From: Chitinophagaceae bacterium
GTDB lineage: Bacteria > Bacteroidota > Bacteroidia > Chitinophagales > Chitinophagaceae
Length of the DNA: 39,738 nucleotides
Assembly: GCA_019455085.1 (NCBI GenBank)
Contig: JACFNA010000007.1
Span: forward strand, 1 to 39,738
Direction of reading: 5' to 3'
Within the stretch, counting starts at the first letter, position 1; the number at the start of each line of letters is the position of its first letter. This document shows, one piece after another, positions 3,974-23,885 of this stretch. The translations under genes were made by a program, and so were the position numbers. Under the pieces are notes generated by a model, which saw only the letters and a program-made list of their open reading frames with translations, was not told the DNA's origin and ran no database searches.

Positions 3974-4009
3974 GCCGAAAGAAATCTCTTGCTGAATTAA
4001 TGATATGCT

Positions 4010-4036
4010 TCCCCTGCTTTGTTCAGGGGATTTTTT
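4010..4036 (+). terminator. Intrinsic terminator after the DinB remnant
   Basis: A 7-bp stem (TCCCCTG at 4010-4016 with CAGGGGA at 4024-4030) has a 7-nt loop and is followed directly by six T (4031-4036). It sits 37 bp downstream of the DinB remnant stop and just before the promoter of the S15-family gene. Confidence 0.7.
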
Positions 4037-4051
4037 ATAATGGTACTTTTG
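4018..4051 (+). promoter_or_regulatory. Candidate promoter of the S15-family hydrolase gene
   Basis: TACTTTTG at 4044-4051 fits the -7 consensus TAnnTTTG. A TTTG at 4018-4021 lies 22 bp upstream, close to the usual -33 spacing. The ATG follows 33 bp later. The -33 part overlaps the loop of the preceding terminator. Confidence 0.5.
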
Positions 4052-4084
4052 GAAGGTGATTATACATTTCCTAAAATTGAAAAA

Positions 4085-5911
4085 ATGAAAAAGATTCTTT
4101 TCCTGCTTGCCCTAGCCTGGCTGGGTACTGCCTCCGGACAGTCAAATAATTTTGTAAAAGAAAACTATGATAAGATAGATACCACCATCACTATGCGGGA
4201 TGGAGTAAAGCTCTACACAATTATCTACATACCAAAAGACAAGTCGGAGAAGTATCCTTTTCTGATACAACGAACCCCGTACTCTGTTGCACCTTATGGC
4301 AGCGGGAATTATGCAGGAAGGGTAGGCCCTAACGAAGCGCTGATGCACGAGAAATATATTTTCGTATATCAGGATGTGAGAGGACGGTATATGAGCGAAG
4401 GGTATAACAAAGAGGTAACCCCCTACATTCCTGACAAGAAAACGAATAAAGATGTGGACGAAAGTAGCGACACCTATGATACTATGGAGTGGCTTCTTAA
4501 GCACATTCCTGACAATAACGGACGGGCAGGATTATACGGAATATCCTATCCCGGGTTTTATGCCACAGCCAGTCTTCCTGCAGCACATCCTTCTATTCGG
4601 GCAGTAAGCCCACAGGCACCGGTTACGGATGAGTTTATTGGAGATGATGCCAATCATAACGGCGCTTTTTTTCTGATGGATAATTTTGACTTTATGAATT
4701 TTTTTGGGAAAGAAAGAAGTGGCCCTGTGAAAAGCTATGGCTCACCGATATTTGAGGCTCCAAGAACTGATGCTTATAAATTTTTTTTAGAATTAGGGCC
4801 GGTAAAGAATACACAATCGGAGAAATATTTTAATAATCGCAGCTATATCTGGTATGAATACCTGGAACACGATACGTACGATAATTACTGGCAGCAAAGG
4901 AATATCCGCGGCCATCTTAAAAACGTAACGGTTCCGACTCTTGTAGTGGGCGGATGGTTTGATGCTGAAGATCTTTTCGGCGCATTGCACACATTTGATG
5001 CTATTGAAAAGCAGGGTTCCGGAATCAACAATTATCTGGTAATGGGGCCCTGGACACATGGTGCGTGGGCCAGAGATGGCTGGACCCGGTTTGCGACCTA
5101 CGATTTCGAAAGCAATACGAGCAGGTACTTCCAGGACAGCCTGCAGACTACATTCTTTAATTATTTTTTGAAGGATAAAGGTTCGTGGAATGCAACCAAG
5201 GCTACTATGTTTGAGACAGGCGGCAATCGGTGGCATCATTTTGACAAGTGGCCTCCCCGCAATATCAGAGAGGTAACTTATTATCTGGGCGCGGGTAGGA
5301 AATTATCTGAAAGAAAGAGTAGTGACCTGCGTGCATTTGACAAGTATATAAGTGATCCTGCTAACCCCGTTCCTTATACGGGGAAAGTACAGGCCAGGAG
5401 AAACAATGAGTATATGGCCGAAGATCAGAGTTTTGTAATGGGTAGAGGGGACGTGTTGAGCTATGAGTCGCCTCTGTTAACAGAGAATCTGACAGTAGCA
5501 GGACCAATATCAGCGAACCTCTTTGTAAGCACTACCGGTACAGATGCAGATTTTATAGTCAAGCTTATTGACGTAGTTCCCGGGGCTGATGGAGCGGCCG
5601 ATATCCGGCGGTTGGTGAGGGCCGAGGTAATGAGGGGGAAGTTTAGGAATAATTACGTAGTGCCGGAGGCTTTTGTGCCGGGTAAGGTAAGTGAGGTAAA
5701 GATTCATCTGAATGATGTATTACACACCTTCATGAAAGGGCACAGGTTGATGGTTCAGATACAAAGCAGTTGGTTTCCGCTGGTGGACAGAAATCCTCAG
5801 AAATTTATGAGAATACCAGAAGCAGATGAAAGTGACTTCCAAAAGGCGGAGATTAGCGTTTACAGAGACAGGGCTTATTCTTCTTCAATCATACTATCGG
5901 TGATGAAGTAG
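4085..5911 (+). CDS. Secreted CocE/NonD-family hydrolase (S15 peptidase-like acyl esterase)
   Basis: A 608-residue protein starting at ATG 4085, which opens a clear signal peptide (MKKILFLLALAWLGTASGQ). An in-frame ATG upstream at 4019 would put 22 extra residues before it and overlap the promoter. The alpha/beta-hydrolase domain of the X-Pro dipeptidyl-peptidase/CocE family has its expected triad. Ser154 lies in GISYPG, Asp293 in GGWFDAED and His325 in GPWTHG. The C-terminal third is the PepX_C-type jelly roll (about 430-600; LTENLTVAGPISANLFVSTT). Relatives include cocaine esterase, alpha-amino acid ester hydrolases and glutaryl-7-ACA acylase, so an ester or amide substrate in the periplasm or outside is likely. 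The exact substrate cannot be told. There is no sorting domain, which suggests a periplasmic or lipid-free secreted location. The stop is TAG. Confidence 0.85.
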   Translation: MKKILFLLALAWLGTASGQSNNFVKENYDKIDTTITMRDGVKLYTIIYIPKDKSEKYPFLIQRTPYSVAPYGSGNYAGRVGPNEALMHEKYIFVYQDVRGRYMSEGYNKEVTPYIPDKKTNKDVDESSDTYDTMEWLLKHIPDNNGRAGLYGISYPGFYATASLPAAHPSIRAVSPQAPVTDEFIGDDANHNGAFFLMDNFDFMNFFGKERSGPVKSYGSPIFEAPRTDAYKFFLELGPVKNTQSEKYFNNRSYIWYEYLEHDTYDNYWQQRNIRGHLKNVTVPTLVVGGWFDAEDLFGALHTFDAIEKQGSGINNYLVMGPWTHGAWARDGWTRFATYDFESNTSRYFQDSLQTTFFNYFLKDKGSWNATKATMFETGGNRWHHFDKWPPRNIREVTYYLGAGRKLSERKSSDLRAFDKYISDPANPVPYTGKVQARRNNEYMAEDQSFVMGRGDVLSYESPLLTENLTVAGPISANLFVSTTGTDADFIVKLIDVVPGADGAADIRRLVRAEVMRGKFRNNYVVPEAFVPGKVSEVKIHLNDVLHTFMKGHRLMVQIQSSWFPLVDRNPQKFMRIPEADESDFQKAEISVYRDRAYSSSIILSVMK

Positions 5912-5995
5912 AGAATCAGCCGTATCATACAGAAGCAGGACATACGGAAGCTATCACTATACATTGCGGCAATACAAAGGCCGCCTCCATAAAAC

Positions 5996-6034
5996 ACCAA
6001 TCCTCCCGGCAGCACGGGAGGATTGGTAATTTTA
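5996..6034. terminator. Strong hairpin between convergent genes, probably bidirectional terminator
   Basis: A perfect 12-bp stem (5997-6008 with 6015-6026; CCAATCCTCCCG / CGGGAGGATTGG) encloses a 6-nt loop, and an extra A-T pair at 5996/6027 extends it. On the plus strand it is followed by TAATTTTAAA. On the minus strand it is followed by a short T-containing tail. It lies between the plus-strand hydrolase gene, which ends at 5911, and the minus-strand RHS gene, which ends at 6079. Confidence 0.7.
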
Positions 6035-6078
6035 AAGTTGAGAGTCATCGGCAACAAGCCGAAGGGTTTCCCACAAGA

Positions 6079-9000
6079 TTAATGTTTCATTACTTTAAGG
6101 ACTTCTTTATTGGCCAGCCTGATAAAGTAGATACCATTGGTATAGCCACTCATATCAAACTGTTGACTTGCGTGGGTAATTTTTACTGACTGCAACAACT
6201 TGCCGGCCTCGTCATAAACCTGAGCTATGGTGCCAATAAGTGTTTTATCTGTTGAGGCCACCGTGATGAGTCCTTTAGTCGGATTAGGATATACAATTGT
6301 TTTAACCAGTGTAATGGCGTCATAATTGAGTCGGATCACATTAGAGTATTCTTTGCGTCCGTCAATATCCATTTGCGCCAGACGGTAATACATAATAGGT
6401 TGTCCCAGCTTATCAATACCGTAATCGGTGTAATGATAAGAAGCGTTGGAATTTGTATTACCCGAAGCCCTGACACTGCCGATGGCTTTGAAATCCTGAG
6501 CGTCAAAAGAGCGCTCTACGACATACTCTTTCGTATTTCTTTCGTTGGCGGTAGCCCACTCCAGCAGATTGTCATTACCCTTGTTGGTTCCTTTAAAATA
6601 CAACCACGACACAGGCACTACCCCAATCGGAGAGAGATAGGTATTGAGGATATCGCCGACACGCATCTGTTCGGTATTACCTACACTGTCAGTAGCAATT
6701 ACAAAGAAGTAGTATCGCTGATCGCCCGGCCCTGTGAAAGTAGTATCAGTTCGTGTAATCCTGTCTTTCCACAATGAGAAGTTGGTACCGTCAGTAGAGT
6801 AGTAGAGTGAATAATAATGCACGCCACAACCATTTGGATCATCCACACCAGACCATGAAAGAGGAATGGAGCCTTCGTAGCTGGAGTTCAGTGCATTGAG
6901 ATGACTGGTAGGCGCTACTGCATCAATCACGTTCTTCTCAATATTGGTAGGGATGGTATCGTTCTGGTCAAATACGATATCTGCATAAGCCAGAATAGAA
7001 TCCAGTGTCTGCGCATCAGCTACAGGCTTGACGCTGAAGGTCACAAAGCCATGACCATTCCTGGATTTGTCTTCAGTAGTGTCCTGAAGTAACAGGAAGC
7101 CTTTCATCGGATCCTCCGGAGCCATCATGGTTACGGGATCAATAGACTGGAACTCCCAGAAGAATTGATTTTTGGTAACATCATAACCGGCTACCAGATC
7201 AATAAACATCCCGAGCGAATCACGCGCATCCAGGCGCTGATAGGTTGAGTTTGCTAAAGAAGGCAGAGCGAAGTCCTGATTGTTGAATCCGAGGTTTGTG
7301 AGTTGAAAAGTAGTGACATCCATCTTCTCGTGTGCGGGCACAATCACCTTCACATATTTGGCGGGAGCGCTTGCCGAAATATCGTTTTCAAAGGTAACGG
7401 TATAGGGCAGGCGGTCCTTTACACTCACCCAGCGCTTATCAGGTTGCCCTTCAGGCCCGATGATTTCATTGGGATCGTTGGAGGTGATAGTTTCAGCTGT
7501 TCCACCAGCACCACCGGAATGTGGAGGTCGTTTCTGCGTACCGCCGGGATCATTGTTTTGAGGGCAGTCGGTTCCCCTGGTTTTTTTCCGCATCTTGTTC
7601 TTTGCCTTTATATAAGTATCATACTTGCCTATTCTTTTATAATACTCAATAAGCTCCAACTCTTCTTTCAAAATTTCTTTCTCCACTGTAGAATTGATAA
7701 CCGTATTAAAGTATGTGTTACTTGTATTTGAGATGTGTTGATTGATAGATTCTCCTGTAAGGCTCACAGAAATCAAATCGCCTAATCCCAATACTGTACC
7801 AAATCCCGGCACAAATGCCAGGCCACTGCCAATAAGGTCAGCAGTTGCCAAACCCACTTCGGGGTTAAATGATCCATCACTTTCAGCAATTGCATTACCA
7901 AGATTATAAGCGTTTACTCCTACCCCGAGAGCGCTACTTGCTTTGCCTGCCATTCCGGTAGCACGCATGACTTTTCCGTTTTTTGCAATTGCCCCAGGCG
8001 CCTTAGAGGCTGTACTTATTCGCCCATTCCGGGCGGCATTTATCCCCTTCGAGAGTTGCTGACTTGATTTTCCGAACAATTGTCTTATTTCTCTGTTTCT
8101 TTTTAGTAATTCTTCTTCAATTTTTCTAAACTCCTCCATTCTGCTTGTGATTTCTTCCATGGTATTCCTGAATTCTCTGGTTTTAGCAGTCTCGATTACA
8201 GTTATCACAAATCCCGTATAGGTATTCGCTGTACCTATCTTTGTTACTATCGTAGTTGTAGTCGTCTTTACTTTAGGAGGACAATCCTCTAACCCTAAGA
8301 TATCCACCCCATTAGCCGGGTTGTTTCCCACATACTGATACATTCCCATCCCATCGCCATAACCAATCAAATCCTGCTGGTCAAACAATCCTGTTTCCGG
8401 ATTATAGCTTCTGAAGTAGAACTGGTTGTGTCCGGTAGCGCTATCGTACTGCTGACCTGTGTAACCATAACGATTACCCGTGATACTACCCGTCAGTACG
8501 TTGCCATTAGCATCGTAGCGGGTTTGTTTTCCATAAGCATCGTATTGATATTTTTCTACCAAATCACCACCCACGTCAGTCAGTGCATCCACACTGAGCA
8601 GATGATTTTGATGGTAGTAAAAAGGAATACCATCTTTTTCATTCATTACCGGTGAAAGGAAACCACTGAAAAAGGTTTTATTGACAATTTCATCGCCGGC
8701 ATTTCTTTCTTCTATAAGGTTAAGACCTGAATGGGTAAAGTTGGATGCTACACCATTGACTTCTTTAACAGCTCTTCTTCCCAAAGCGTCGTACTGATAA
8801 TAAATCACTTCAGTTACCGATGCAGAATCTCTTATCAGCCTTTTATCCTGATCATACGTTTTGTAATACTTGCCGTCAAAGGTGAGGTTACCATTATTGT
8901 CGTAAGTGAAGTTGGTTGTTTTAGTGCCATCATTCATACTCACCGTCTGATTCAGATTGTTTTTGGTGTAGGTAATAGATTTGCCGCCGATAGTAGCTGC

Positions 9001-11937
9001 GGTGCGATTGCCCAGCGCATCATAAGTATAGGTATCATTTACGGTAAATGGACCGCCATCTTTTCCTTTTTTATAATTGATAAGCCTGCTGTTATTGTCG
9101 TAGGTAAAGAATTCAGATTCGTTGGAAGTGCCGCGTATGATGGAGGTGATGTTTCCATTATCGTCATAGGTGAATGCCATATTCTGAATGCTTCCTGTAT
9201 GGATGGAGATGAGCCTGCCGGCAAAGTCGTATTGATAAGTAGAGGTCAGGCCATTGGCATGCGACTTTGATACCACCTGGTCAGCATTGTTGTATTGCCA
9301 GGTAACCAAAGAGTCGCCATTTTTACGCATGGAGGTGAGTCTATTGCGTGTATCGTAGGTGCTTAGCACAACTGTGCTGTCGGGGTAGATGGTGGTCTCT
9401 GTTCTGCCGGCAACACTGTAATTGTATTTCACTTCTCTTCCATTAAATGATTCTGAAGTTACCCGTCCTAAATTGTCGTAAGTGAATTCAACCGTTCCGG
9501 TGTTGTTGGTGGCAGAGATTATTTGTCCCAGCGCATCATAGCCGTAAGTAAATACCTGGCCGCCAGGAAGTGTCTTGGTGATCAACCGGTTGAGGGAGTC
9601 GTAGGTGTAATTAGCCACACTACCATCTTTTGCCCGGTAGGTAGTGATATTTCCTTTTACATCGTAAGAGTATTCAGTGAATTTTCCATCGGGAAAAGTT
9701 TCTTTGGTCACCCGGCTCAATGCGTCGTAGGTGTAAACAGTGACATTGCCATTGGCATCAGTAAGGGAGGTAATATTTCCTGTGGCATCATAGCCAACCT
9801 GAGTAACGGCGCCGATGTTGTCCGAGTAGCTCGTTATCCTTCCGAGGTTATCGAAATTATAGGTAGAGATTTTGCCCATTTTATCTTTGATCGTCTTTTC
9901 CGTTCCGTTGGTATTATAGGCTATTTCAATAGATTTGCCCAAGGCGTCGGTAATCTTTTTGAGTCGATCCAGTTTGTCGTATTCATAGGTCGTGGCAGCG
10001 CCATTGGCCTCGGTAAACTTTGAAATGTTGCCGTTCGCATCGTATTCTAATGAACCGATTGGGCCCGTCTCATCACTTGCGGAAACGAGCCTGTTCAAAG
10101 GATCATAAGTATAAGTAATCGTACTACCTGTGGGGAGATTAGCAGTAATGAGATTCCCGTTACGATCGTAACCGAATGATACCTCATTACCATCGGCATC
10201 CAGGGCAGATTTCAACAGATTTCTGCTGTCGTACTGATAGGAAGTTACTGACCCTTTAGCGTCGGTGATGCTTGTGATATTGTCCATCCCGTCATAACCG
10301 ATATTCAACCTGCTGCCATGAGGACTTTCAATAGCCTTTATTCTGTTGGAGGCATCGTATTTGAGTATGGATTGTTCATTATTCTGATTGCGAAAACTTA
10401 CAAGGTTGCCGATGGCGTCGTAGCTCAGATTTACTTTGTTACTGAGGGCATCAGTCAGTTGTGTCATTCTTCCTAAAATATCGTATTGCAAAGTGCCTGT
10501 ATGGCTGTTCGCATCGGTGATGCTCAATATATCCCCTCTCTGAGATACATTGAGTGTAACCTGAAATCCTTCAGGGCCGTTCACTCCGCTCAGATTGCCA
10601 TTCGCATCGTAAGTAAAGGTGAAGGTTTTACCATCCGGAGTAGAGCCGGAGGTCATTTTTCCATTCGCATCATATACTGCGGTAAATATCCTGTTATCAG
10701 GGTCGGTTACTTTGGTCAGGTTTCCCTTACTGTCGTACTCCAGGGAAGTAACAAAACCTTTCGAGTCGGTAATTTTGCTTACCCAGTCCGTACCTGGAAT
10801 GTAAGCAAGCGAAACCTTTTGTCCCAGTGCATTGGTGATCGTTAGCAGGTTGCCGATATCATCATAGCTGAATGAAGTCGTGTTGCCATTGGCATCTGTT
10901 TCTTTTATTTTATTACCATTAGCATCATAATCTATTTTTTTGTTCAGTCCACAACAGTTACTCGAGATAGCGGTTAGCCAAATCTGTTTTCCTATTTTGG
11001 AATAGTAAAACTTATTCACCTGATTTTCTCCTGACTCCATATACTCTGTAATTACGGTCATCAATTGTGCCGTGTCGTAACTATAGCTCAGCCTTCTGTT
11101 ACAGCCAACCATTTCCTTCACACCGTATCCCGGGAAATACACAATATCTACCACATTCAGGTTTTTATCTGACACTGTTTGCACAGGGCCGTTGAGCAGG
11201 TAGGTGTATTTTTCCTTTGCTCCCAGAGGGTCAGTAACGGATGTCAGGTTTCCCTGTGCATCGTAAGCATAGCTCCAGGAGCGGGAAGGCGAAATGATGG
11301 CGTCGGTAACGGTTGTCAATTGCCCTTTTCCATTATATGCAAGGCTTATGGTTTTGCCATGATTGTTCGTTATGGACGTGATGCGTGTGCCGGTTCTGCC
11401 CAAGCTGATAAAATTACCGTTGAGGTCTGTGATTTTCGTCAGTCCCTTGTGGGTATTGTCTTCAAACAAGTATTTAAGCCCGGTTTTTTCGGTGAGGGAA
11501 AACTTTCCGGTTTCATATTCTTTCAGCACGTAAAAGAAACCAACCGGCGACTGATAATTGCCACCGCCTGTCGGGGTATATTCGTCTTCACGGCCATTGC
11601 CCCATTCCACAATTACCCTGTTGACGGAGTCTATCCTGTAGTGCATATCATATTCAAAACCCCATCCATTTCCAAAACCGCGATTGATTCCCAGATTATA
11701 GGAATTGTAATAAAAGTTAATAGCGATATCAAGGCCTTCGTCTGGGATGGCAAAATCCAATCTTTCAAAAAACAAATTTCCGGTATAGCTGTTCACCTGT
11801 AATCCCATCGGCCCATCAGTGTTGGGAATATTGACATTTTGGGCTTCAATGGTCAACCCTGTAAAGAGTAACCCTCCCAGCAATAACATTTTGCATTGCT
11901 TCATGAATCGTGTTTTATTGAAAATTAAGTACTTCAT
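6079..11937 (-). CDS. Giant RHS/YD-repeat protein with T9SS type A sorting domain
   Basis: A 1,952-residue protein with a signal peptide. Either Met1 or Met12 (MKQCKMLLLGGLLFTGLTIEA) could be the start. An RHS N-terminal domain (about 45-130) is followed by dozens of YDxxGN repeats (150-1080) that should form a beta-cocoon. The RHS core (about 1090-1215) includes NRYGYTGQQYD, SYNPETGLFDQQDLIGYGDG and GVDILGLED. Residues 1217-1456 form an insert: a charged coiled-coil-like stretch, then a Gly/Ala-rich hydrophobic part, then another helical part. Next is a domain opening with SNDPNEIIGPEG (from 1485), an Ig/Fn3-like domain (1672-1760), the pre-sorting Ig segment (1775-1875) and a type A sorting domain (1880-1952; VYPNPTKG, ending VMKH). 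Unlike polymorphic toxins, it has no toxin tip at the C-terminus and no immunity gene. It starts in frame, six codons after the TAA of the upstream CARDB gene, so the pair is likely one operon. Confidence 0.88.
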   Translation of the reverse strand: MKYLIFNKTRFMKQCKMLLLGGLLFTGLTIEAQNVNIPNTDGPMGLQVNSYTGNLFFERLDFAIPDEGLDIAINFYYNSYNLGINRGFGNGWGFEYDMHYRIDSVNRVIVEWGNGREDEYTPTGGGNYQSPVGFFYVLKEYETGKFSLTEKTGLKYLFEDNTHKGLTKITDLNGNFISLGRTGTRITSITNNHGKTISLAYNGKGQLTTVTDAIISPSRSWSYAYDAQGNLTSVTDPLGAKEKYTYLLNGPVQTVSDKNLNVVDIVYFPGYGVKEMVGCNRRLSYSYDTAQLMTVITEYMESGENQVNKFYYSKIGKQIWLTAISSNCCGLNKKIDYDANGNKIKETDANGNTTSFSYDDIGNLLTITNALGQKVSLAYIPGTDWVSKITDSKGFVTSLEYDSKGNLTKVTDPDNRIFTAVYDANGKMTSGSTPDGKTFTFTYDANGNLSGVNGPEGFQVTLNVSQRGDILSITDANSHTGTLQYDILGRMTQLTDALSNKVNLSYDAIGNLVSFRNQNNEQSILKYDASNRIKAIESPHGSRLNIGYDGMDNITSITDAKGSVTSYQYDSRNLLKSALDADGNEVSFGYDRNGNLITANLPTGSTITYTYDPLNRLVSASDETGPIGSLEYDANGNISKFTEANGAATTYEYDKLDRLKKITDALGKSIEIAYNTNGTEKTIKDKMGKISTYNFDNLGRITSYSDNIGAVTQVGYDATGNITSLTDANGNVTVYTYDALSRVTKETFPDGKFTEYSYDVKGNITTYRAKDGSVANYTYDSLNRLITKTLPGGQVFTYGYDALGQIISATNNTGTVEFTYDNLGRVTSESFNGREVKYNYSVAGRTETTIYPDSTVVLSTYDTRNRLTSMRKNGDSLVTWQYNNADQVVSKSHANGLTSTYQYDFAGRLISIHTGSIQNMAFTYDDNGNITSIIRGTSNESEFFTYDNNSRLINYKKGKDGGPFTVNDTYTYDALGNRTAATIGGKSITYTKNNLNQTVSMNDGTKTTNFTYDNNGNLTFDGKYYKTYDQDKRLIRDSASVTEVIYYQYDALGRRAVKEVNGVASNFTHSGLNLIEERNAGDEIVNKTFFSGFLSPVMNEKDGIPFYYHQNHLLSVDALTDVGGDLVEKYQYDAYGKQTRYDANGNVLTGSITGNRYGYTGQQYDSATGHNQFYFRSYNPETGLFDQQDLIGYGDGMGMYQYVGNNPANGVDILGLEDCPPKVKTTTTTIVTKIGTANTYTGFVITVIETAKTREFRNTMEEITSRMEEFRKIEEELLKRNREIRQLFGKSSQQLSKGINAARNGRISTASKAPGAIAKNGKVMRATGMAGKASSALGVGVNAYNLGNAIAESDGSFNPEVGLATADLIGSGLAFVPGFGTVLGLGDLISVSLTGESINQHISNTSNTYFNTVINSTVEKEILKEELELIEYYKRIGKYDTYIKAKNKMRKKTRGTDCPQNNDPGGTQKRPPHSGGAGGTAETITSNDPNEIIGPEGQPDKRWVSVKDRLPYTVTFENDISASAPAKYVKVIVPAHEKMDVTTFQLTNLGFNNQDFALPSLANSTYQRLDARDSLGMFIDLVAGYDVTKNQFFWEFQSIDPVTMMAPEDPMKGFLLLQDTTEDKSRNGHGFVTFSVKPVADAQTLDSILAYADIVFDQNDTIPTNIEKNVIDAVAPTSHLNALNSSYEGSIPLSWSGVDDPNGCGVHYYSLYYSTDGTNFSLWKDRITRTDTTFTGPGDQRYYFFVIATDSVGNTEQMRVGDILNTYLSPIGVVPVSWLYFKGTNKGNDNLLEWATANERNTKEYVVERSFDAQDFKAIGSVRASGNTNSNASYHYTDYGIDKLGQPIMYYRLAQMDIDGRKEYSNVIRLNYDAITLVKTIVYPNPTKGLITVASTDKTLIGTIAQVYDEAGKLLQSVKITHASQQFDMSGYTNGIYFIRLANKEVLKVMKH

Positions 11938-11955
11938 AGCTTTTAGTTTACAGGG

Positions 11956-14900
11956 TTATTTCAGGTTAAAGTGAATGAATTCATGTGGCGGTGTGTTCGG
12001 CGGCGTGTTCGTATAAATGGTAATGCTGCCGCTGCTTCCTGCACGGAAAATCCCCGGAGGGCCGTCTTTGCCCGTGAGTTCAATGTACAGAGAGGAGGTA
12101 CCATCCTGAATACCTTCTCTTGTGAAAGACATCGGGATACCGAAATCGTTGTATAATACCATCGTCTGTACCGGGATATCCATATTGGTAGGGTTGCTGT
12201 AATTGATAATTATAGGGAATATTAACCCGACAAAAACCCTGTCTGGAACTACTAACTCTACCGACAATTGAGAGTTCATTCCTGCCAGCATTCCGGGATC
12301 ACAACCGGGGTCGGAACCCGATCCTGTCTGACCGGTATTTACCCCTCCGCCTGAGTACAGGCCGCCATTGTCAGGGGTTACCACAGAGAATCCCGATGCA
12401 AGCCCGGCTTCGGAGTTATCGGTCTTGATGAGTTTTACATCATACACCCCAATTGGTTTCCCTGTTAACGGGAAGGTGGCATATACCTGCGTACTATTGA
12501 TAAAATACACCCTTGAAGCTGGGATAGTAGTTGCCCCATTTGAAAGCCTTGCCGTCATACTGTCTGTAAAGAGTGAGCCTGTCAGTTTCACCGTTACATT
12601 ACCACCGTTGCCACCTCTGTCTGATTGTACGTTGAGGATAGCAAATGGTAATACGGCAGCACTGAGCGTGATATCCTGCTGTACCCGTGGAATGGAGACA
12701 GAGCGCACAGCGATATAGTAAACAGAATCTGTCACATCTGTTAACAGCACTTCCTGGTTGCCATAATTAGGTGTATTGAATTTGTAATCTGATTTCAGTA
12801 CAGATGGTACATATCCACCGCCCACATATACTTCATTTTGTTGCGTCAGCGAATCTTTGGATTTGAGTGTTATCAAAATGGTGGAACCTTTGAGCGAATC
12901 GGGCACCAGCAATTTATAAAATCTGGAATTGGTCATGGTATCCACGAGTGGCACATCCATTTGTAACTGTTTAACAGACACGTAAACCGGTTTGGCCTTT
13001 ACGTTTTCATTGTTATCCTTATCGCTTTCATAGATGTTATTTTTGATATCCGAACGAACGATGATGTTGTAGTATCCTTCGGGTACATTGTCAATGACCG
13101 GAGTCATTGAGAACTCTTTCTGTGCTGCAGGATCCAGGTTTAACCACCTTTGTAATGAGCCTATCAGTAAGGCCGTTGAGTCATAAGTGCTGTTTTGCGA
13201 CAGGTACACTCCATCGGTAGAGATGCCTAATGCGGAAGCAGCAGATTGATTTTTTATGGTCCATTGGATGGTATCCAACGGGTATCCTAAATAAGCGGTA
13301 TCGGGGGCGGTTATGTTTTGCACGGTAAGGTCAGCCGGCTCAGGCAGATAGGCCTCAATGGAAATACCGCTGATATTGTTGTTCTCATCTGATTCAGTAA
13401 CTACGGTATTATGGTCAGGAGAAGCTAACAGGAGATAGTTACCCGGTTGGAAATACAAGGGGAGTGTTACGGTGACTGAGTCTGTGTAATTTTCACCAAC
13501 ATTCAAAACTCCGGTGTGATATACCGGCCAACTGGACACAGTACCCGATGACCCGGTGTTGACAGAGACGAGTACCCTATCCCACCATTTTTCAGGATAG
13601 GTGGAACCCACACCCACATTCGTTACTTTATATTTTACAGTAAAGGGCTGACCAATCGCAACTCTTTGCGGAGCGCTGATAATTTCCCCTGTAAGGTCGG
13701 GAAGCATCGTGCTCTCTACATGAATCAACTTTGCTTTGCCGGTGGCATCTCTGACGAAGTTGAAATTATTGCTGCGGTCTATTTCGTTCAGGTAAACACT
13801 GTATTGATCAGTAAATACATACACATAATAATCGCCTTCCTCTATATCGGGCATATTCACTGTTAGTGATTTAGACAGAGTAGCACCTGATAATACATCC
13901 TCGCGATAAGTTATTTCCTTCAAAAGGATTGCTTCCTCATTCACCACCGAATCTTTAGAGAAATAAACAGCGTCTGTTCTGGATACGTACCACCCCGCTC
14001 TGAGCGTGGCGCCACTTCCGTTGTTAATAACATCCCATTGCAGGTTAAAGATTCTGCCCACCTTGGCACTTTCATCGCCGGTAACCTTTGCTATAGCGAT
14101 GTTCGCATTCCGGTTTTCTACGGATTTTGCTCCTGTTCCGGCAATGTTGTTAGCCATATTACCAGGCTCGTATATTGATTCGGTAGCGTTTATCCTTACA
14201 AAGAAATATGCATTGTTAACATCTGCCTTAGGAAAACAGCCATCGAGCAGATATAGATATTGAGAAATGGAAACATTTACCGTAACATTGACTTCACTAC
14301 CCACAGTAATCGATCTGTAACCGCTCCAACTTCCGATCTCTATTGCGGTCGATTCACTAAATACCGGATTACAACTGATATAGATTTTATCCACCATCGT
14401 GTCGCTCAAATTGTTCCCTCCGACATTGCGGACAGTGTATTGCAGAGTAATGGGGCCCGGTACTTTTGCACTTCCATCTATGGACAAGCCATCAGCCATA
14501 AGATCCATCGGCAAGGCTGTGGATACTGTAGTTGCCATACCGGCACTGGTATTATTGCCTGTGTTGGATTCAGGGAAGGGGTTATCGGAGTTTGTTTTTA
14601 CAAAGATATACTTGGTGCCTGCAGTACTGTTGGGGAGTGTGACGGAAACAGTATGTGATGCGGACTCACCTGCGGGAATACTCTCTTTAAAGGAGGATGA
14701 TTTAACCTCCGTGGCCGTACCGTCAAATACCGGATTGTCACCGATATAAATCTTGTCGGTTCGTGCCAAATCATTTACGTCGACACTGCTGGTGTTGGTG
14801 ATGGTATAATCAATATTAAATGGCGTACCCCCTCTTACCGATGCAGGTACTGATACCGTTGGTACCGTGAGGTCAGGGTAGCTAACCGTAATCATGCCGC

Positions 14901-17900
14901 TACGGCGCACCACCGGCGTATCTATGTAGGTAAATACGTGTTTATCGGCATTTGATACTATGTAGATATAATAATTACCTTGTGGCAAGCTGGAGGAAAC
15001 GGTCCAGTTAAAGTTTGCAGGATGAACAGAACCCGGATTCAACACATATTGACTGTACGGGTAGCTATAGGTGTAAGGCGTGCAAAACGTGGTATCGTGG
15101 AGTAATTTTGGAGGATCATTTTCCGACAACAATCCAACCCCCTCTATTCCATGCCTGGCCATGCCCAGATAGATGGCACTGCCGATGTTGAGTCCCGACG
15201 GATCGGTGCTCAGGTAAACCTTATCCACCCAATAACTGGCGCCGTAAGAAGTAGTGTGTTTCATATTAAAGTACGGTTCTACAGAGCCATAGGAACCGCC
15301 TCCGGAGCCACCGACTACCACTCCACCACAAATTCCCAGATTCTGCCGGTAAACGGCTTTATTCTTTTCCCAATTGTCATAGAAACCCACATTGGTTACC
15401 GCCCAGTTGACGGTAACTTGTTGGGATGGGGTAACCTGTGTGGCCGAGGTATTGATGGTGCCCAATGAAAACTGTGGCGTGGGTGTCAGCATAATCTGGA
15501 TAGGCCTGTTGTTCTCATTGTTTCCGGCAAGGGCGCCTTCATACAGTATCTTGTCTTCGTTGGCAACTACATGTACAAACCAGGTTCCCGATATAAAGTT
15601 GGGTATTATCACCTCCACATTTCGGGTGTAGAAATCATCTGTTTCAATGTTTTCGTTGATTTTGACGAAAGCGTTTCCATTATTTGGCAAATTTGTGTGA
15701 GGGTAATAAGAGCCATTGGCTTTTGGAAACTTCAATAGTATGGCACTGTTCTTGTCAAACAACGGACTTTTAGACACATAGATTTTATCATTCCAGGTAC
15801 CGGAAGCCAGTGCTCCATAGTTGGTTACCTTGTAAGAAACATTTACAGTACTTCCTGAGAAAACGGTAGCCGGCGCCTGTACGGTGTCCACTCTTAAGTC
15901 GGGGGTAGGACTCATTGTTATGTGTATTGGATTAGCTGCCCTGGCTGTATCATTTGAGTGATCGGCATCCGGTGGTGCACTAGCCAGGCCCTTGTAATTG
16001 GTAATGACATACACGTACAAGGAATCAGAATAATCGAGCGGAAGGGTAAAGTCAATTGAATTCTGATATTCCTGCCCGACATTGAGGGCGGAAACATTGG
16101 GTTTTGTACCAATCAGGAGGGGTCTTATGGGAAATGCCAATGCATTAAATGCCGCAGTGGTGGCCGTCGCAATTTGGAATAGTGGTATCGTATCAAACGA
16201 TAGGAAAACCGCATCATTCCATTTCTCTTCCGTGATTGTATTGCCTGTGCCTTCATTTTTTACAGTCCAGTTGATGGTAATGGTTTGTCCGGAGTTGGCA
16301 GAAGCAGGTATGTTTACCTGTGTAACCACCAAATCCGGGGCTTTTCTCAATCTGAATGTTTGTATGGAGCCTGGGGTTTGGAGGCATCCGTTTTTAGAAA
16401 CCAACTGCCAGTTGTAGTCCACATCATATTCTAATCCCGACTGCGTGGTTAAGGTATAATTGATGAGTGTCCGGTTAGCTGCAATAGGATTGGCAGGGCG
16501 CGAGGTGCCGGTTTTCCACACGTACAGGTCGTAGGCCATGGTGTTGTTGCCTGGTACCCACGACAGGAACAAAGGCAGCTTCTGGTCGGTTATACCACTT
16601 GCCGGTAGCATATTCTGTACGGCATCAGGCGCCGTAACGCCATCCAATACGGTTATGGTGAGAGAGTCTATTGTTGTCTCCGGCCCACATGGACCTACTG
16701 CAGAAACGTAGAGTTTGTAGGTACCCTGAACAGGCCAGTTGATGGCCACTGTATCTTTGTCTGAAGCGAATGTGGTGCCATCACTCAAGCGCCAGCTATA
16801 TGTGAGCCCGTTTAGCTTCTTCGTCTTATACACCATTTCGATTCCCGGGCAGATGCTTGTAGCGCCGGTGATGGGCCCCAGTTTATCAGCTCTCACACAG
16901 AAAGTCTGTTCTACGGATGCAGCTGCATTGTAATTGGCATTGCCAGCCTGTGATGCTGTAATCTTAACTGTACCTACACCGGTTATAGTTATGTATTTTC
17001 CGCTAATCGTAGCATTGGCAGCGTCTATGGAATAGGTTACAGGCAAGCCTGATGAAGCATTGCCGGCAAGGGTTATATAATTGGAGGATCCGGTAAATAT
17101 CACATCCTCCATCGGCTCAAACGTGATGGTTTGGTTTCCTTTGGTGATGGTGAAGGTTTGTGTTACGTAAGCAGCGGTATCGTAGTCATTATCTCCCGGT
17201 TGCCATGCCCTGATGGTTACGGTACCGATCTGGGTAATGGTAAATACCCCGGCGGTGATATTGCCATGGCCGCTGACGATCTGGTATTGAACAGGCAGGC
17301 CGGAGCTGGCCACCGCACCTAATTCAAAGGGAGCATCTCCAAATGATTTGTCAACCAGGTTATTGAATGTGATAGTCTGTGGAATAGACGCATTCTCAAA
17401 AACTATGGAATTGGAAACAGGGCCGCTGCCGCAGTCGTTGATATACTCAACTGTAAATGTTCCCGCTTCTGAAGCATAATAAGACAGACCGGTTTCGCCT
17501 GCAATCAGCGATCCGTCCTTATACCAGTTGATAGCTGTCACCTGGTCGGCGGGAGGTGGCGCAGAGGCGTAAATCCAGCGGCCGGTATTGGTCAGTACCG
17601 GGGCGGTCGCTGATGCGCCGGGTTTTACCAAAACGGTTTTGGATGCTACCGTTCCGTTGCCGCAATTGTTTACGGGTGTTACCTGGACTGTTCTGTTGCC
17701 GGAAGCCGTGAATGTCACATACGCCGTATCGTTGTCTGTGGTAAATGTGCCGCCGGTAACACTCCAGTTGTATGTAACGCCCTCTTCTTTTTCGGAAGGG
17801 TAATATTTGATGGCGCCGGTATTCAGACACACTTCGGCATCGCCAATAACAGAAACGGTTACCTGTGGCTTATCGGCCACGGTAAAACCAATAGTATTCT

Positions 17901-20900
17901 GGCTCATAATTGCCTGGCGGTCGCCTGTCATCCGTAGCAGGTGGTGGTTTCCGGCAGTAAGCCATGCCGATGGAATACTCACTACTATACTGTCAGACAC
18001 AAAAGTTGTTTTACTGGCTACAATCAATGGTGAGCTGAAATCACCATTTTCGTCAGACATTTCTACTTTGAAAATAGTACCCTCTAAGGCCGCTGTATCT
18101 AAACTGAAATGTACTTTGAAGGAGCTGCCTTTACAGATTACTGTATCTGCAAGCGGCTGGATGGTAAGTATAGGTGTGCGGATATCCTGTGCATAGAAAG
18201 CAAGTGGACCGTATGTCGTAATTGCTGATGCGGTTGAAACGGTTCCGCGATCATTATCTCCGGTCGTTCCACCTTTTGGATGGCTAATCCATTTACTGCC
18301 ATCCCATCCTGTGATGTTCAGCGATGTGTGATCAAACACAGTTTCATAATGATTACGGTCGTATGTCAACGACACCTGCACGTCAGATGATGCTCCATTG
18401 GTACGCGTTAAATTCCAATAGGCATCCGGAAGAATACCATCTAAGCCGGCTTCTTTTTGTGAAAGATCGTAACCATCATTGGTAGGATTTCCCCTCTTAT
18501 ATTCTGCCACAAATTCTGCTGTGGCTTCAGCCGGAGCAGAAATACTGAGCGGCGCTTTAAAATCGCCATACAATTCACGTTGGGCAAATGAATTGCTTTG
18601 ATTTGGTTGCTTTCCGTTAAAACCCATCATGCCCACGGTCTTACCAAGTGGGAAGGTAAAAGCAGTGTTCCCAATTTTTTTCATGGGGCCTTCCACAAAT
18701 GTACCACTGACCGGGTCTTCATCCACAACAGAAGCGCCATTCCCAATCACGAGCATCGCGGTTTGCTGGCTTCCGAATATCCCATTTCCGTCTCCCATCA
18801 CCAGTTGTTCGGTCACCATTATATCCTGTTGAAGTGCCAGGTATCCACCGTCCTTTCTGAAAAAGATGTTCTTGATTTGGTATGGGCCTATTTCTATAGG
18901 GCCTCTTTGAAGACCACCGCCAGCCGGAGGAACAGTTAGTTGCTGAAAATTACTTCCCGTAAAAGTGATTTTATCTAAATAAACATTGCCTGGATAGGCC
19001 TGGTTGATGGTGACATGCCCATCTACTACCAGTGGTTCGCCATCTCCAATTCCAATAGCGATAGTTCCGGTAGCGGTATTAATGATGGTGAGGTCGCCGT
19101 TAATATAATCCTCGGCTGCTGCCCCATTAGCAAGATAATTTGACCCATAGGGACTATTGTTCGTAAACGTTAAATTACCATAGAAACTATTTCCAATCGT
19201 GTAGGCGTCTGCTGCCCTGCTGATATGGTCGCTTATATAGGTAGTGCCAGAAAAAGTATTAGTTATAATTTGCGCCTGTCCTGTGAAGTTGGATATTCTT
19301 ATTTCGCCATAAGAGTCAATACTGGAATAGAAGATTCTTGGACTGATAGGATTTAATACATGTAATTGGTCCAATCCCTCAATGTATGAATCGTACAAAT
19401 TGAATGTATCTGAAACCGTGAGGTTATATCCATTCATATACAAGGAAGCGCTACTCATTCTTAAGCCACCGATAGTGATATTATCATTTACATTGGGTTC
19501 ATAGTCATTGGGGGTATCGATGATTACCATAGAACATTCATCAGGTACCTGATTGGGTGTCCAATTTTGTGGATCGCTCCATTCGTCGCTCACACTTCCA
19601 TTCCAGACAATAATAGTTTTAACAGTACAATCAGATGAGGTGCCACAACTGTTGCTCAAAGAAATAAAATCATAACAATCTCCCGCATTCCCATCTACCT
19701 GTGGGTTTACGGCATTCCCACTGTTCAGATAATTACAAATAGCAGGAACATTACAAACAGACAATTGTGAATTATATAAAATTTGTAAATCATCCCCATT
19801 CACATTATTGATTTGTAAACTGCTGTTCAGCATGGTTAGCGATGTCAGTGCAGCGTTGTCTGTAATCCAGAGGGCATCGGTTTCCAGGATATTTTGCAGC
19901 CCATTCAGCGATGTCAGATTATCGTTGGAAGAAATCTCGATTTTATCATACGCCACAGTAGTGATCTGGCTAAGCCCCGAAATGCTTTGCAATGCATCAT
20001 TACTATATACAAGAATGCCATAGGGAGCACTGGTAATATTTTGAAAGGCATCCATATTCGTAAGCGCATCGCAATTCATAAATATAATATTGGCGACAGA
20101 AGTGAATTGTTCTACATAAGTGATGTCTGTCAATTGCGGCATACCCGCCAGCCACAGGGTGGCGATGTTGCCATTTGAAAGTCCGGAAGTGCTGGATCCA
20201 AGTGAGGTTATTTGGGGAAGATTATTTAAGAGCAGTCCGACCATATTTGTGAGGGGAGCCAGGCCAAGGTCGGTCATCTGGCTATTATTGTCATACCATA
20301 CATATCCGCCGACAGAAGTAAGGCTTGTAAGCCCCGGTGTAATCACACTACTGTTCAAAACCTTAAGGTCGCCTCCTATATTTTCAACTGTAGATAACCC
20401 GGCAAGCGATGTTACTGCCGAGTTGGATACGAGTACATCATTGGCAATATCAGTAAGCGAACTACTGAAGGCGTCAAGCGTAGTCAGTAACGGCAGGTCG
20501 CGCAATGTTAGGCCGCCCAATGTAGCTACATTTGAGAGCCCGACGCTGGTGAGTAAACTATTGTTATCAATTACCAGCGAATCGGTAATGGAGGTAAGGC
20601 TTGTGAGTGAGGCCAGGCTTGTAAGGGATGTGTTTTTCACAATGATGGTGCCGGCCGATTCTAATGCAGAGAGTGTACTCAGGTTGTTGATAACACTTCC
20701 GTCTATAGTCAGCAATCCTACTGAAGTACATCCCGGATAGAGGGTGCTGAAGTTATCTATATCTCCCTGGTTGGTCAGGGTAATAGTTTCATAATCCCAT
20801 GCGCGTTTCATTTGTTGCGAGATGCCTGATTCACTCTTAGGATAGTAAACCGGCAATTCTCTTGTCAGTTTTGTGCCCCGCAGATTGGTGCCTGAAGTTG

Positions 20901-21174
20901 TTTTCATATCTACCCGGATCATTTCTTTGGTGAAATTCCCCTTCGGAGGCACTTGCTTTTTTACCTTCTTATTTCTTGTAACGGGTTTGTTTTGTGGTCT
21001 TGTACGCAAGGTGCTCCCCTGATATGCAAATGGAGGCTGAATAGTCTTTTGTCCTGCGATGGTATTGATGATTACCGGTTTTCCGGTAGGACTCTTTTTA
21101 GTGTCGACTCTCTGGCCGAACAATAAGACAGGCGATAACAGGCAGATCAAGGCTGTAAAGGAAAGATTGCGCAT
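11956..21174 (-). CDS. Giant secreted LRR / Ig / MBG / CARDB-repeat protein
   Basis: A 3,072-residue protein starting at ATG 21174; a TTG two codons earlier is a poorer choice. The signal peptide MRNLSFTALICLLSPVLLFG is followed by a basic linker. Receptor-L/LRR-like repeats come next (about 125-480; phrases such as NLTSLNGLQNI). A segment with WNGSVSDEWSDPQNW follows (~530), then beta-helix-like strands, an Ig/PKD-like domain (~1110-1170), two MBG-like domains (~1260-1410), another Ig-like domain and an Fn3-like domain (~1500-1590). Eight CARDB domains (~1608-2740) begin with phrases such as PDLVVTQVNIPASANSGQ. An IPT-like domain follows (~2845-2930). The tail ends DGPPGIFRAGSSGSITIY, then PHEFIHFNLK. 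There is no T9SS sorting domain. All parts are binding or spacer modules, with no catalytic domain seen, so an adhesin or scaffold is inferred. The RHS gene follows in the same frame after 18 bp, which suggests a joint function. Confidence 0.85.
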   Translation of the reverse strand: MRNLSFTALICLLSPVLLFGQRVDTKKSPTGKPVIINTIAGQKTIQPPFAYQGSTLRTRPQNKPVTRNKKVKKQVPPKGNFTKEMIRVDMKTTSGTNLRGTKLTRELPVYYPKSESGISQQMKRAWDYETITLTNQGDIDNFSTLYPGCTSVGLLTIDGSVINNLSTLSALESAGTIIVKNTSLTSLASLTSLTSITDSLVIDNNSLLTSVGLSNVATLGGLTLRDLPLLTTLDAFSSSLTDIANDVLVSNSAVTSLAGLSTVENIGGDLKVLNSSVITPGLTSLTSVGGYVWYDNNSQMTDLGLAPLTNMVGLLLNNLPQITSLGSSTSGLSNGNIATLWLAGMPQLTDITYVEQFTSVANIIFMNCDALTNMDAFQNITSAPYGILVYSNDALQSISGLSQITTVAYDKIEISSNDNLTSLNGLQNILETDALWITDNAALTSLTMLNSSLQINNVNGDDLQILYNSQLSVCNVPAICNYLNSGNAVNPQVDGNAGDCYDFISLSNSCGTSSDCTVKTIIVWNGSVSDEWSDPQNWTPNQVPDECSMVIIDTPNDYEPNVNDNITIGGLRMSSASLYMNGYNLTVSDTFNLYDSYIEGLDQLHVLNPISPRIFYSSIDSYGEIRISNFTGQAQIITNTFSGTTYISDHISRAADAYTIGNSFYGNLTFTNNSPYGSNYLANGAAAEDYINGDLTIINTATGTIAIGIGDGEPLVVDGHVTINQAYPGNVYLDKITFTGSNFQQLTVPPAGGGLQRGPIEIGPYQIKNIFFRKDGGYLALQQDIMVTEQLVMGDGNGIFGSQQTAMLVIGNGASVVDEDPVSGTFVEGPMKKIGNTAFTFPLGKTVGMMGFNGKQPNQSNSFAQRELYGDFKAPLSISAPAEATAEFVAEYKRGNPTNDGYDLSQKEAGLDGILPDAYWNLTRTNGASSDVQVSLTYDRNHYETVFDHTSLNITGWDGSKWISHPKGGTTGDNDRGTVSTASAITTYGPLAFYAQDIRTPILTIQPLADTVICKGSSFKVHFSLDTAALEGTIFKVEMSDENGDFSSPLIVASKTTFVSDSIVVSIPSAWLTAGNHHLLRMTGDRQAIMSQNTIGFTVADKPQVTVSVIGDAEVCLNTGAIKYYPSEKEEGVTYNWSVTGGTFTTDNDTAYVTFTASGNRTVQVTPVNNCGNGTVASKTVLVKPGASATAPVLTNTGRWIYASAPPPADQVTAINWYKDGSLIAGETGLSYYASEAGTFTVEYINDCGSGPVSNSIVFENASIPQTITFNNLVDKSFGDAPFELGAVASSGLPVQYQIVSGHGNITAGVFTITQIGTVTIRAWQPGDNDYDTAAYVTQTFTITKGNQTITFEPMEDVIFTGSSNYITLAGNASSGLPVTYSIDAANATISGKYITITGVGTVKITASQAGNANYNAAASVEQTFCVRADKLGPITGATSICPGIEMVYKTKKLNGLTYSWRLSDGTTFASDKDTVAINWPVQGTYKLYVSAVGPCGPETTIDSLTITVLDGVTAPDAVQNMLPASGITDQKLPLFLSWVPGNNTMAYDLYVWKTGTSRPANPIAANRTLINYTLTTQSGLEYDVDYNWQLVSKNGCLQTPGSIQTFRLRKAPDLVVTQVNIPASANSGQTITINWTVKNEGTGNTITEEKWNDAVFLSFDTIPLFQIATATTAAFNALAFPIRPLLIGTKPNVSALNVGQEYQNSIDFTLPLDYSDSLYVYVITNYKGLASAPPDADHSNDTARAANPIHITMSPTPDLRVDTVQAPATVFSGSTVNVSYKVTNYGALASGTWNDKIYVSKSPLFDKNSAILLKFPKANGSYYPHTNLPNNGNAFVKINENIETDDFYTRNVEVIIPNFISGTWFVHVVANEDKILYEGALAGNNENNRPIQIMLTPTPQFSLGTINTSATQVTPSQQVTVNWAVTNVGFYDNWEKNKAVYRQNLGICGGVVVGGSGGGSYGSVEPYFNMKHTTSYGASYWVDKVYLSTDPSGLNIGSAIYLGMARHGIEGVGLLSENDPPKLLHDTTFCTPYTYSYPYSQYVLNPGSVHPANFNWTVSSSLPQGNYYIYIVSNADKHVFTYIDTPVVRRSGMITVSYPDLTVPTVSVPASVRGGTPFNIDYTITNTSSVDVNDLARTDKIYIGDNPVFDGTATEVKSSSFKESIPAGESASHTVSVTLPNSTAGTKYIFVKTNSDNPFPESNTGNNTSAGMATTVSTALPMDLMADGLSIDGSAKVPGPITLQYTVRNVGGNNLSDTMVDKIYISCNPVFSESTAIEIGSWSGYRSITVGSEVNVTVNVSISQYLYLLDGCFPKADVNNAYFFVRINATESIYEPGNMANNIAGTGAKSVENRNANIAIAKVTGDESAKVGRIFNLQWDVINNGSGATLRAGWYVSRTDAVYFSKDSVVNEEAILLKEITYREDVLSGATLSKSLTVNMPDIEEGDYYVYVFTDQYSVYLNEIDRSNNFNFVRDATGKAKLIHVESTMLPDLTGEIISAPQRVAIGQPFTVKYKVTNVGVGSTYPEKWWDRVLVSVNTGSSGTVSSWPVYHTGVLNVGENYTDSVTVTLPLYFQPGNYLLLASPDHNTVVTESDENNNISGISIEAYLPEPADLTVQNITAPDTAYLGYPLDTIQWTIKNQSAASALGISTDGVYLSQNSTYDSTALLIGSLQRWLNLDPAAQKEFSMTPVIDNVPEGYYNIIVRSDIKNNIYESDKDNNENVKAKPVYVSVKQLQMDVPLVDTMTNSRFYKLLVPDSLKGSTILITLKSKDSLTQQNEVYVGGGYVPSVLKSDYKFNTPNYGNQEVLLTDVTDSVYYIAVRSVSIPRVQQDITLSAAVLPFAILNVQSDRGGNGGNVTVKLTGSLFTDSMTARLSNGATTIPASRVYFINSTQVYATFPLTGKPIGVYDVKLIKTDNSEAGLASGFSVVTPDNGGLYSGGGVNTGQTGSGSDPGCDPGMLAGMNSQLSVELVVPDRVFVGLIFPIIINYSNPTNMDIPVQTMVLYNDFGIPMSFTREGIQDGTSSLYIELTGKDGPPGIFRAGSSGSITIYTNTPPNTPPHEFIHFNLK

Positions 21175-22757: not shown

Positions 22758-23885
22758 ATGAAGTTCATCGTTTCCTCAACACAACTGCTCAAAAATCTGC
22801 AACAAATCGGTGGGGTATTAAATTCTAACACCGTATTACCTATTTTGTTAGATTTCTTATTTGAAATACAGGATAACCAACTGACGGTAATCGGTACCGA
22901 TCTGGAGACGGTAGTAAAGGTAAAGATTGATATAGAGGCTCGTGAAGAAGGGAAAGTATGTATCCCTGCACGCATCCTTATGGACTCGCTGCGGAATATT
23001 CCTGAGCAACCGCTTACATTTACGATTGATAAATCTTATGCTGTAGAAATTACAAGCGATACGGGTAAGTATAAGATTATGGGAGAAAGCCCCGAGAATT
23101 TTCCGAGAGACCCGGATAGTGAAGACTCTGATTCTTTCAAGATGCCTGCCACGGCGATGCATGCAATTATTGGCAAGTGTCTCTTTGCTGCAGGTACAGA
23201 CAATCTTCGCCCGGCTATGTCAGGAGTATTCTTTGAGCTGTCAAAGAATATGCTTACTACAGTGGCTACAGATGCACACAGACTGGCAAAACTTACACGC
23301 ACCGATGTCAGCAATAAGAAAGAAGCCTCTTTTATTGTGCCCCGTAAACCGCTTTTACTGATGAAAGGCCTGTTGCCGGTGAGTGATGAGGAACTTGTAG
23401 TATCCTATAACTCTAAACATTTGTTCGTGCAGCATGGTGCTTCGGAGATAATGTGCCGCCTGATAGATGCACGCTATCCTGACTACAGAGTGGTGATTCC
23501 TGCCAATAATCCCTATAAACTCGTCGTTAACAAGAACAACTTTGAGCTGGCGTTACGCAGAGTAAGTGTATTTAGTAATAAGAGCACTTATCTGGTGGCA
23601 CTAACCATTACCGGTAGCGAACTGGGACTTGAGTCGCAGGATACAGATTTGAGTTTTGAAGGAAATGAGCGGATGTCGTGCCAGTATGAAGGCGAAGACA
23701 TGAAGATTGCTTTTAATGCTAAGACATTGATTGAAATGCTTGCGGCTACAGATACAGAGGAAGTGGTTATAGAACTTACCTCCCCTACCAAGCCGGGCAT
23801 ACTGAGGCCTTACGATGGCGGAGAAAAGAAAGATAGCCAGGAAGAATTATTGATGCTGTTGATGCCACTGGTGATTACCATATAA
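22758..23885 (+). CDS. dnaN: DNA polymerase III beta subunit (sliding clamp)
   Basis: A 375-residue protein, the usual length for the bacterial beta clamp. It forms a ring-shaped dimer of three-domain subunits that tethers DNA polymerase III to DNA. Family features are the start MKFIVSSTQLLKNLQQIGGV, the segment GTDLETVVKVKIDI, the second-domain phrase RPAMSGVFFELSKNMLTTVA followed by TDAHRLAKLTR, the third-domain phrase DARYPDYRVVIPANNPYKLV, and a C-terminal LLMLLMPLVITI close to the usual MPMR end. The gene is not next to dnaA here, which is common in Bacteroidota. The stop is TAA. Confidence 0.97.
   Translation: MKFIVSSTQLLKNLQQIGGVLNSNTVLPILLDFLFEIQDNQLTVIGTDLETVVKVKIDIEAREEGKVCIPARILMDSLRNIPEQPLTFTIDKSYAVEITSDTGKYKIMGESPENFPRDPDSEDSDSFKMPATAMHAIIGKCLFAAGTDNLRPAMSGVFFELSKNMLTTVATDAHRLAKLTRTDVSNKKEASFIVPRKPLLLMKGLLPVSDEELVVSYNSKHLFVQHGASEIMCRLIDARYPDYRVVIPANNPYKLVVNKNNFELALRRVSVFSNKSTYLVALTITGSELGLESQDTDLSFEGNERMSCQYEGEDMKIAFNAKTLIEMLAATDTEEVVIELTSPTKPGILRPYDGGEKKDSQEELLMLLMPLVITI

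Follow-up and report, generated by a model that had tools for sequence, protein, structure and literature searches.

Two adjacent genes on the minus strand, one encoding a CARDB-domain protein of 3,072 amino acids (aa) and the other an RHS-repeat protein of 1,952 aa, were analysed in a 39,738-nucleotide (nt) stretch of DNA from a Chitinophagaceae bacterium (GCA_019455085.1, contig JACFNA010000007.1, positions 1 to 39,738), hereafter denoted the window. The two genes probably represent the halves of a widespread giant-protein architecture, in which a CARDB stalk partners an RHS half anchored by the type IX secretion system (T9SS) and carrying a replaceable cargo; we give this reading a probability of roughly 0.6. 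The pairing of the CARDB and RHS halves is real, and between close relatives the cargo is replaced wholesale, as a cassette. The latter is the most informative new observation, and was absent from the first-pass annotation of the window.

The CARDB open reading frame (ORF) runs from 21180 (TTG) or 21174 (ATG, two codons after the TTG, from which the 3,072 residues are counted) to a TAA at 11958..11956; the RHS ORF follows from an ATG at 11937 to 6079. Six codons in the same frame (CCC TGT AAA CTA AAA GCT) separate the TAA from this ATG, so that the end, start and spacing given in the first-pass annotation agree with the ORF coordinates. The last 260 aa of the CARDB protein (TAIL) were used as a search query; DPND refers to the domain of the RHS protein that partners TAIL in single-chain homologues, and L057 to the locus of a sister species. 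The features are placed as follows:

11956..21174, minus strand: CARDB gene, 3,072 aa, with an N-terminal signal peptide and without a T9SS sorting domain
11959..13413, minus strand: C-terminal part of the CARDB protein, with CARDB, PPC-like, IPT/TIG-like and final Ig-like domains, from AlphaFold2, VIA-align and the conservation profile
11938..11955, minus strand: intergenic gap of 18 nt, across which the frame is shared by chance
6079..11937, minus strand: RHS gene, 1,952 aa
11839..11937, minus strand: putative RHS signal peptide, aa 1-33, from the sequence and from homologues with hydrophobic N-termini that end before a similar QN start
8290..11838, minus strand: RHS shell, aa 34-1216; its last part is the Rhs-associated core, which retains both Asp residues and the DxxG motif
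7575..8289, minus strand: cassette with the variable internal cargo (aa 1217 to about 1455), recognised from DNA and protein identity to L057
6694..7485, minus strand: DPND domain (SNDPNEIIGPEG...), which overlaps Pfam DUF7619 and is paired with TAIL in fused chains
6088..6294, minus strand: T9SS type A sorting domain, aa 1882-1950 (TIGR04183, 33.5 bits against a cut-off of 23; PF18962, 40.2 bits)

When 84,980 species genomes were scanned with the TAIL alignment, 20 loci emerged, all in Bacteroidota, and in 20 of 20 a gene for an RHS and/or DPND protein comes after the TAIL gene in the same orientation; one small gene intervenes in L074 and L076, and the contig ends within the partner in L064 and L068. 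Within the window's own family a search with TAIL gave strong matches in five genomes, one being that of the window itself (G000); the DPND partner is the next or next-but-one gene in G091, G029, G085 (two copies) and G002, with the architecture laid out in G085 as three genes (CARDB, RHS and DPND). Copies that lack RHS repeats (L052; L053, which is the same as L074; L075; L076) still show a TAIL gene followed by a DPND gene. Carriers of the pair for which an isolate exists include Flavisolibacter longurius BT320 (L066) and Chitinophagaceae bacterium PMP191F (L067). Every DPND match checked in the family has TAIL either in cis or in a neighbouring gene, and generic RHS proteins of the family (G077, G004) have neither TAIL nor DPND. 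The order is fixed, with TAIL upstream of DPND, as the architecture demands. The RHS-less DPND protein of L052 (G085; 2368-6978, minus strand) has an N-terminal part that by eye is M23-type peptidase-like, an insert of a different kind from RHS between the two domains. At two non-RHS loci, L053 (2902-4011) and L054 (9033-10169), a conserved secreted protein of ~370-380 aa, which by eye resembles a right-handed beta-helix, is encoded directly upstream of the TAIL-bearing gene.

The two halves also occur fused. We found 23 single chains in which the CARDB-tail domain is followed by DPND, several of them with RHS repeats in between, and in the phylum-wide scan all strong TAIL matches fetched were single chains with DPND downstream, except L115, where the contig ends earlier. 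The fused form is present in the window's own family (G034, G039, G080, G008 and G011, whose DPND proteins each carry TAIL in cis, without RHS), in other members of the phylum and, beyond it, in cyanobacteria and alphaproteobacteria; its insert is RHS or something else. RHS repeats lie between TAIL and DPND in Gloeothece, in Nostoc and in genomes of another family of the same phylum (f17), where open frames reach 9,840 aa; the 2,738-aa frame of Gloeothece verrucosa has TAIL at 745-965, then RHS, then DPND at 1993-2252. Plasmid-borne fused examples come from Gloeothece verrucosa, Nostoc sp. HK-01, Hymenobacter volaticus, Terrarubrum flagellatum and Pseudosulfitobacter. The first-pass annotation had proposed that the CARDB tail, DGPPGIFRAGSSGSITIY, and the SNDPNEIIGPEG of the RHS protein, both of which are present as stated, fit the two sides of one such chain, and had named planctomycetes and cyanobacteria as having single-chain forms; the fusions bear out the proposal, and cyanobacterial forms are among them. 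It had also named what would speak against the idea, namely homologues found mostly alone, with no fused forms and no conserved adjacency, and on each of these points the opposite was found. Adjacency and fusions together give good support to a split form of a known single-chain architecture.

All 23 split loci consist of two or more genes, each with its own stop and start, and in this sense are not single chains. In a DPND tree of 44 rows, the 21 split rows are nested inside fused ones on starred branches; the tree needs two changes, one of which is a weakly placed Hymenobacter row, the sole inner fused row. One splitting event is therefore likely, but not proven. The point of separation is the domain boundary between TAIL and the RHS shell, where the split form shows a stop codon, then a short gap and a signal peptide belonging to the second protein. 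A further break is seen in the fused-type chain of L114 (G229), where one in-frame stop (11488-11490) lies in the stalk just before TAIL at a position that is open in its relatives L107 and L108; it is either a real stop or a sequencing error.

The CARDB protein has Pfam matches to CARDB (x4) and PKD_6, and its N-terminus, MRNLSFTALICLLSPVLLFGQ, reads by eye as a Sec signal peptide. Scans of the entire protein and of its last 260 aa gave no T9SS sorting domain, and Pfam gave no leucine-rich repeat (LRR), so that the LRR label of the first-pass annotation is not confirmed. TAIL sits within the most conserved part of the protein (0.50-0.62 in the conservation profile, against 0.09-0.38 for the N-terminus). 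An AlphaFold2 model of the CARDB end (predicted local distance difference test score, pLDDT, 83) was matched by VIA-align to CARDB (3idu, Z 12.9) and TIG (3muj, Z 12.2) domains. The CARDB end was also considered as a teneurin-like FN-plug, which is unsupported, the model having matched ordinary CARDB, PPC-like, TIG-like and Ig-like domains.

The RHS protein comprises RHS repeats (13 stretches), DUF6531, the Rhs-associated core, part of DUF7619 and Por_Secre_tail/TIGR04183. Its N-terminus, MKQCKMLLLGGLLFTGLTIEAQ, likewise reads by eye as a Sec signal peptide; together with the C-terminal TIGR04183/PF18962 domain, this gives the RHS half both features of a T9SS type A substrate, in agreement with the earlier assignment of a signal peptide to both proteins and of a sorting domain to the second. 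The shell model (aa 34-1222, AlphaFold2; pLDDT 82, predicted template modelling score 0.64) is a long beta-hairpin ladder, for which Foldseek ranks cocoons of type VI secretion system (T6SS) Rhs proteins best (8qjc, E 1e-61), then bacterial and animal teneurins, then TcB-TcC; by sequence and by fold, the YD/RHS repeats closed by the Rhs-associated core are those of an Rhs cocoon. D1156, D1179 and G1182 of the core are invariant in 17/17 aligned shells and, because the two Asp and the DxxG motif are kept in this way, self-cleavage of the core is possible; the predicted site would lie after DILGL. The RHS proteins of L059, L063 and L065 terminate in ...RPGASGTVNSGFTLTILK; no T9SS sorting domain was found in the RHS ends of L059 and L065, nor by an in-house model in L063.

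Between the end of the RHS core (...NNPANGVDILGL) and the DPND/T9SS tail, and hence internal to the chain, lies a cassette of ~0.72 kb (about 8289 to 7575) across which DNA identity to L057 falls from about 95% to about 42% and then returns to 95-100%. Its flanks are NNPANGVDILGL and TDCPQNN..GGTQ. At the protein level the identity to L057 is 0.91 for the shell, 0.21 for the cargo and 0.98 for DPND, with shuffled cargos giving 0.207 +/- 0.023. The same pattern (shell/cargo/DPND) holds for L060/L062 (0.74/0.26/0.90), for L059/L063 (0.64/0.27/0.91) and for fused f17 chains (L107, L109, L111 and L114; shell 0.71-0.79, cargo about 0.2, DPND 0.76-0.88). Since the variable stretch lies between the RHS core and DPND in split and fused chains alike, the replaceable part is internal in both. 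Among homologues the cassette is about 240-320 aa long and scarcely alignable, its core having an identity of 0.10-0.15 where the shell reaches 0.4-0.6 and DPND 0.6-0.7; the cargo of L057 is nearer to those of L062-L064 (0.32-0.36) than to that of the window, which elsewhere in the family has a single weak match (G030). A Pfam search of ten cargos, with E up to 5, returned nothing significant; many cargos have hydrophobic Gly/Ala-rich segments, and several share, by eye, a TGxS-like motif. No silent alternative cassettes were found in the window's genome (a 441-contig draft) or in the sister genome. Swapping on this scale suggests that the cargo is an exchangeable element used in dealings with other cells. 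Identity to L057 also dips inside the CARDB gene, at 18001-18600 (0.64-0.83) and 15001-15300 (0.79), by less than at the cargo.

These data are consistent with the following scheme for an architecture ordered as long Ig/CARDB stalk, TAIL, RHS shell with internal cargo, DPND domain and anchor. The ancestor in this Bacteroidota lineage was probably a single chain, as still found in cyanobacteria and in another family of the phylum, which would later have been severed between TAIL and the RHS shell, the second half acquiring its own signal peptide. Sec would carry both halves across the inner membrane; the RHS half would then be exported by the T9SS through its C-terminal domain and anchored, with the RHS repeats forming a shell around the variable cargo and the chain leaving the shell towards DPND and the anchor. 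The CARDB stalk, which carries no outer-membrane export signal, would dock on the RHS half via the conserved TAIL and either travel or stay with it. The variable cargo may be the part that meets other cells (as ligand, receptor or effector), which would explain its swapping.

Several points weigh against this proposal. Binding of the CARDB half to the RHS half, joint export and the function of the cargo are all inferred, and the first of these we count on the negative side: of the two-component surface system put forward in the first-pass annotation, the pairing, the fusions and the T9SS tail on the RHS half stand, and mutual binding at the surface stays conjectural. The model of the CARDB end resembles ordinary Ig-like domains, with no specific plug. 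The T9SS domain is missing from the CARDB half both in the window and in L071, the sole other CARDB end scanned, and such a half might remain periplasmic; in L059, L063 and L065 the RHS half, too, has lost its T9SS tail. The junction has not simply been cut, because fused chains have a helical-looking segment of ~65 aa linking TAIL to the shell, which the RHS proteins of the split form do not show at their start.

More tentatively, the pair could form an Rhs device of two proteins, anchored by the T9SS: the cargo would be internal and exchanged horizontally, the anchor would sit on the C-terminal exit strand of the shell, and the CARDB stalk of ~3,000 residues would reach the surface solely through its binding to the shell, a case of T9SS export in trans. 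Were this true, the T9SS could carry a partner without a sorting domain, and Rhs shells could hold replaceable cargo mid-chain. The separation of stalk and shell at a domain boundary, with a known export system on one half, makes the parts testable gene by gene, and the cassette swap in the sister genome marks the fast-changing part and lets internal Rhs cargo be tested as weapon versus recognition domain. Many environmental bacteria have giant CARDB/RHS chains in their annotation; among the papers searched, none described the architecture or joined CARDB, RHS repeat and giant proteins, and the few T9SS and RHS papers concern other architectures.

What the cargo does may be read in two other ways. 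It is possible, if doubtful, that the cassette is a binding domain displayed under diversifying selection on a structural head formed by the shell, as in an adhesin or recognition protein. The cassette pattern without a recurring neighbour gene, the permanent T9SS anchoring, the stalk-like CARDB/Ig repeats and the use of the same shell by teneurins as adhesion receptors (PMC6425310) would all fit; Rhs cores with a conserved catalytic Asp, however, normally enclose and release their cargo, and hydrophobic Gly/Ala-rich sequence is unusual in an exposed binding domain. Rather unlikely is a polymorphic toxin, in which the shell would enclose a toxin released into competitors, with the CARDB stalk providing targeting or reach. 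The closeness of the cocoon fold to T6SS Rhs effectors, the self-cleavage motif kept in every aligned shell, the cassette-like replacement known from Rhs toxins and the hydrophobic stretches of many cargos point that way; yet the cargo is not C-terminal, being followed by DPND and the anchor, the ten cargos have no significant Pfam match, and across the loci no same-strand downstream gene recurs, immunity-like or otherwise, convergent genes lying close behind in several. Because an immunity gene stands behind almost all bacterial teneurin-like proteins (PMC13018210), and downstream of TANFOR toxins (PMC7073777), this absence makes a classical antibacterial toxin the less likely reading.

It is unlikely that the genes encode independent secreted proteins linked only by a common operon, with fused chains that reflect a shared origin and split products that no longer meet: the export signals do differ between the halves and the inter-domain helical segment is lost, but pairing and order are strict over Chitinophagaceae and Saprospiraceae-type loci and unpaired copies were not found. 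Readthrough of the TAA to give a single polyprotein, or an error in sequencing, is highly improbable and was rejected, since the same frame and the six codons from stop to ATG, which might suggest it, are set against frame offsets that are random in 23 homologous pairs including L057, the near twin of the window (0 in 7, 1 in 7 and 2 in 9), a stop between the halves in 23/23, the same stop in L057, and a second ORF that opens with a signal peptide. With offsets of this kind the frame common to both genes is a coincidence and carries no information, so that the weight placed on "one frame" in the first-pass annotation falls away, whilst its view that two separate proteins are made agrees with the stops and with the signal peptide of the RHS ORF. 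Unlike the frame, the same-strand order is constant in the 23 pairs, as is a short gap or slight overlap (about -56 to +98 nt).

As to neighbouring genes, a putative T9SS sortase PorU2 (28114-33168, minus strand; NCBIfam NF052324, 845 bits) lies ~7 kb beyond the CARDB gene in the window. Close upstream of the CARDB gene, on the opposite strand, is a DNA polymerase III beta clamp gene (22758-23885, plus strand), flanked by an EamA transporter gene and a cytidylyltransferase gene. A LytTR-like ORF of 104 aa lies 54-58 nt downstream of the RHS gene in L059, L063 and L065, and is restricted to these loci.

Amongst known systems, the giant single-chain CARDB-(RHS)-DPND proteins (Gloeothece verrucosa PCC 7822, WP_245602873.1; Nostoc sp. 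HK-01, BBD63171.1) have TAIL, RHS shell, variable segment and DPND in the order of the window; they differ in being one chain with the ~65-aa helical segment between TAIL and shell, whereas in the window the architecture is spread over two genes, each product with its own signal peptide, and the second protein ends in a T9SS tail. The T6SS Rhs effectors (8qjc, 8qja, RhsA 7q97, RhsP 8h8b and Tse15 8uy4) provide the closest solved shells by sequence and fold, with a common Asp/DxxG core; in the window, a Sec signal and a T9SS tail replace VgrG/PAAR, the cargo is internal rather than C-terminal, and an immunity gene was not found. Bacterial teneurin-like proteins (9ifo/9pt5; PMC13018210) share the YD shell with variable cargo, and relatives of these often bear CARDB/Ig repeats upstream (PMC6425310). 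The shell model of the window starts directly in the shell, with no TTR, FN-plug or NHL propeller region seen in it and no NHL among the Pfam matches; no immunity gene was found, and the shell match is weaker than to T6SS Rhs proteins, which ranked above 9ifo. TcB-TcC of the ABC toxins has a shell with an Rhs core in common with the window, but is a lower match, and the window has no TcB propeller or TcA partner, the partner being a CARDB stalk.

The TANFOR polymorphic toxins of Bacteroidetes (PMC7073777) are likewise large, Sec-exported, proposed T9SS substrates that adjoin T9SS-tail proteins; they carry C-terminal toxins with downstream immunity genes, and TANFOR is not among the NCBIfam matches in the window. 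Finally, the DPN[DE] domain matches in part (profile 81-130) DUF7619, a domain described as forming isopeptides (PMC12617251). The Lys/Asp/Asn triad of DUF7619 is not complete here: in the window type (DPNEI; V for D) other residues stand in place of the Lys and Asp proposed for the isopeptide bond (PMC12617251), and both of these residues are present in L054, L122 and L124. The DPND domain belongs near DUF7619.
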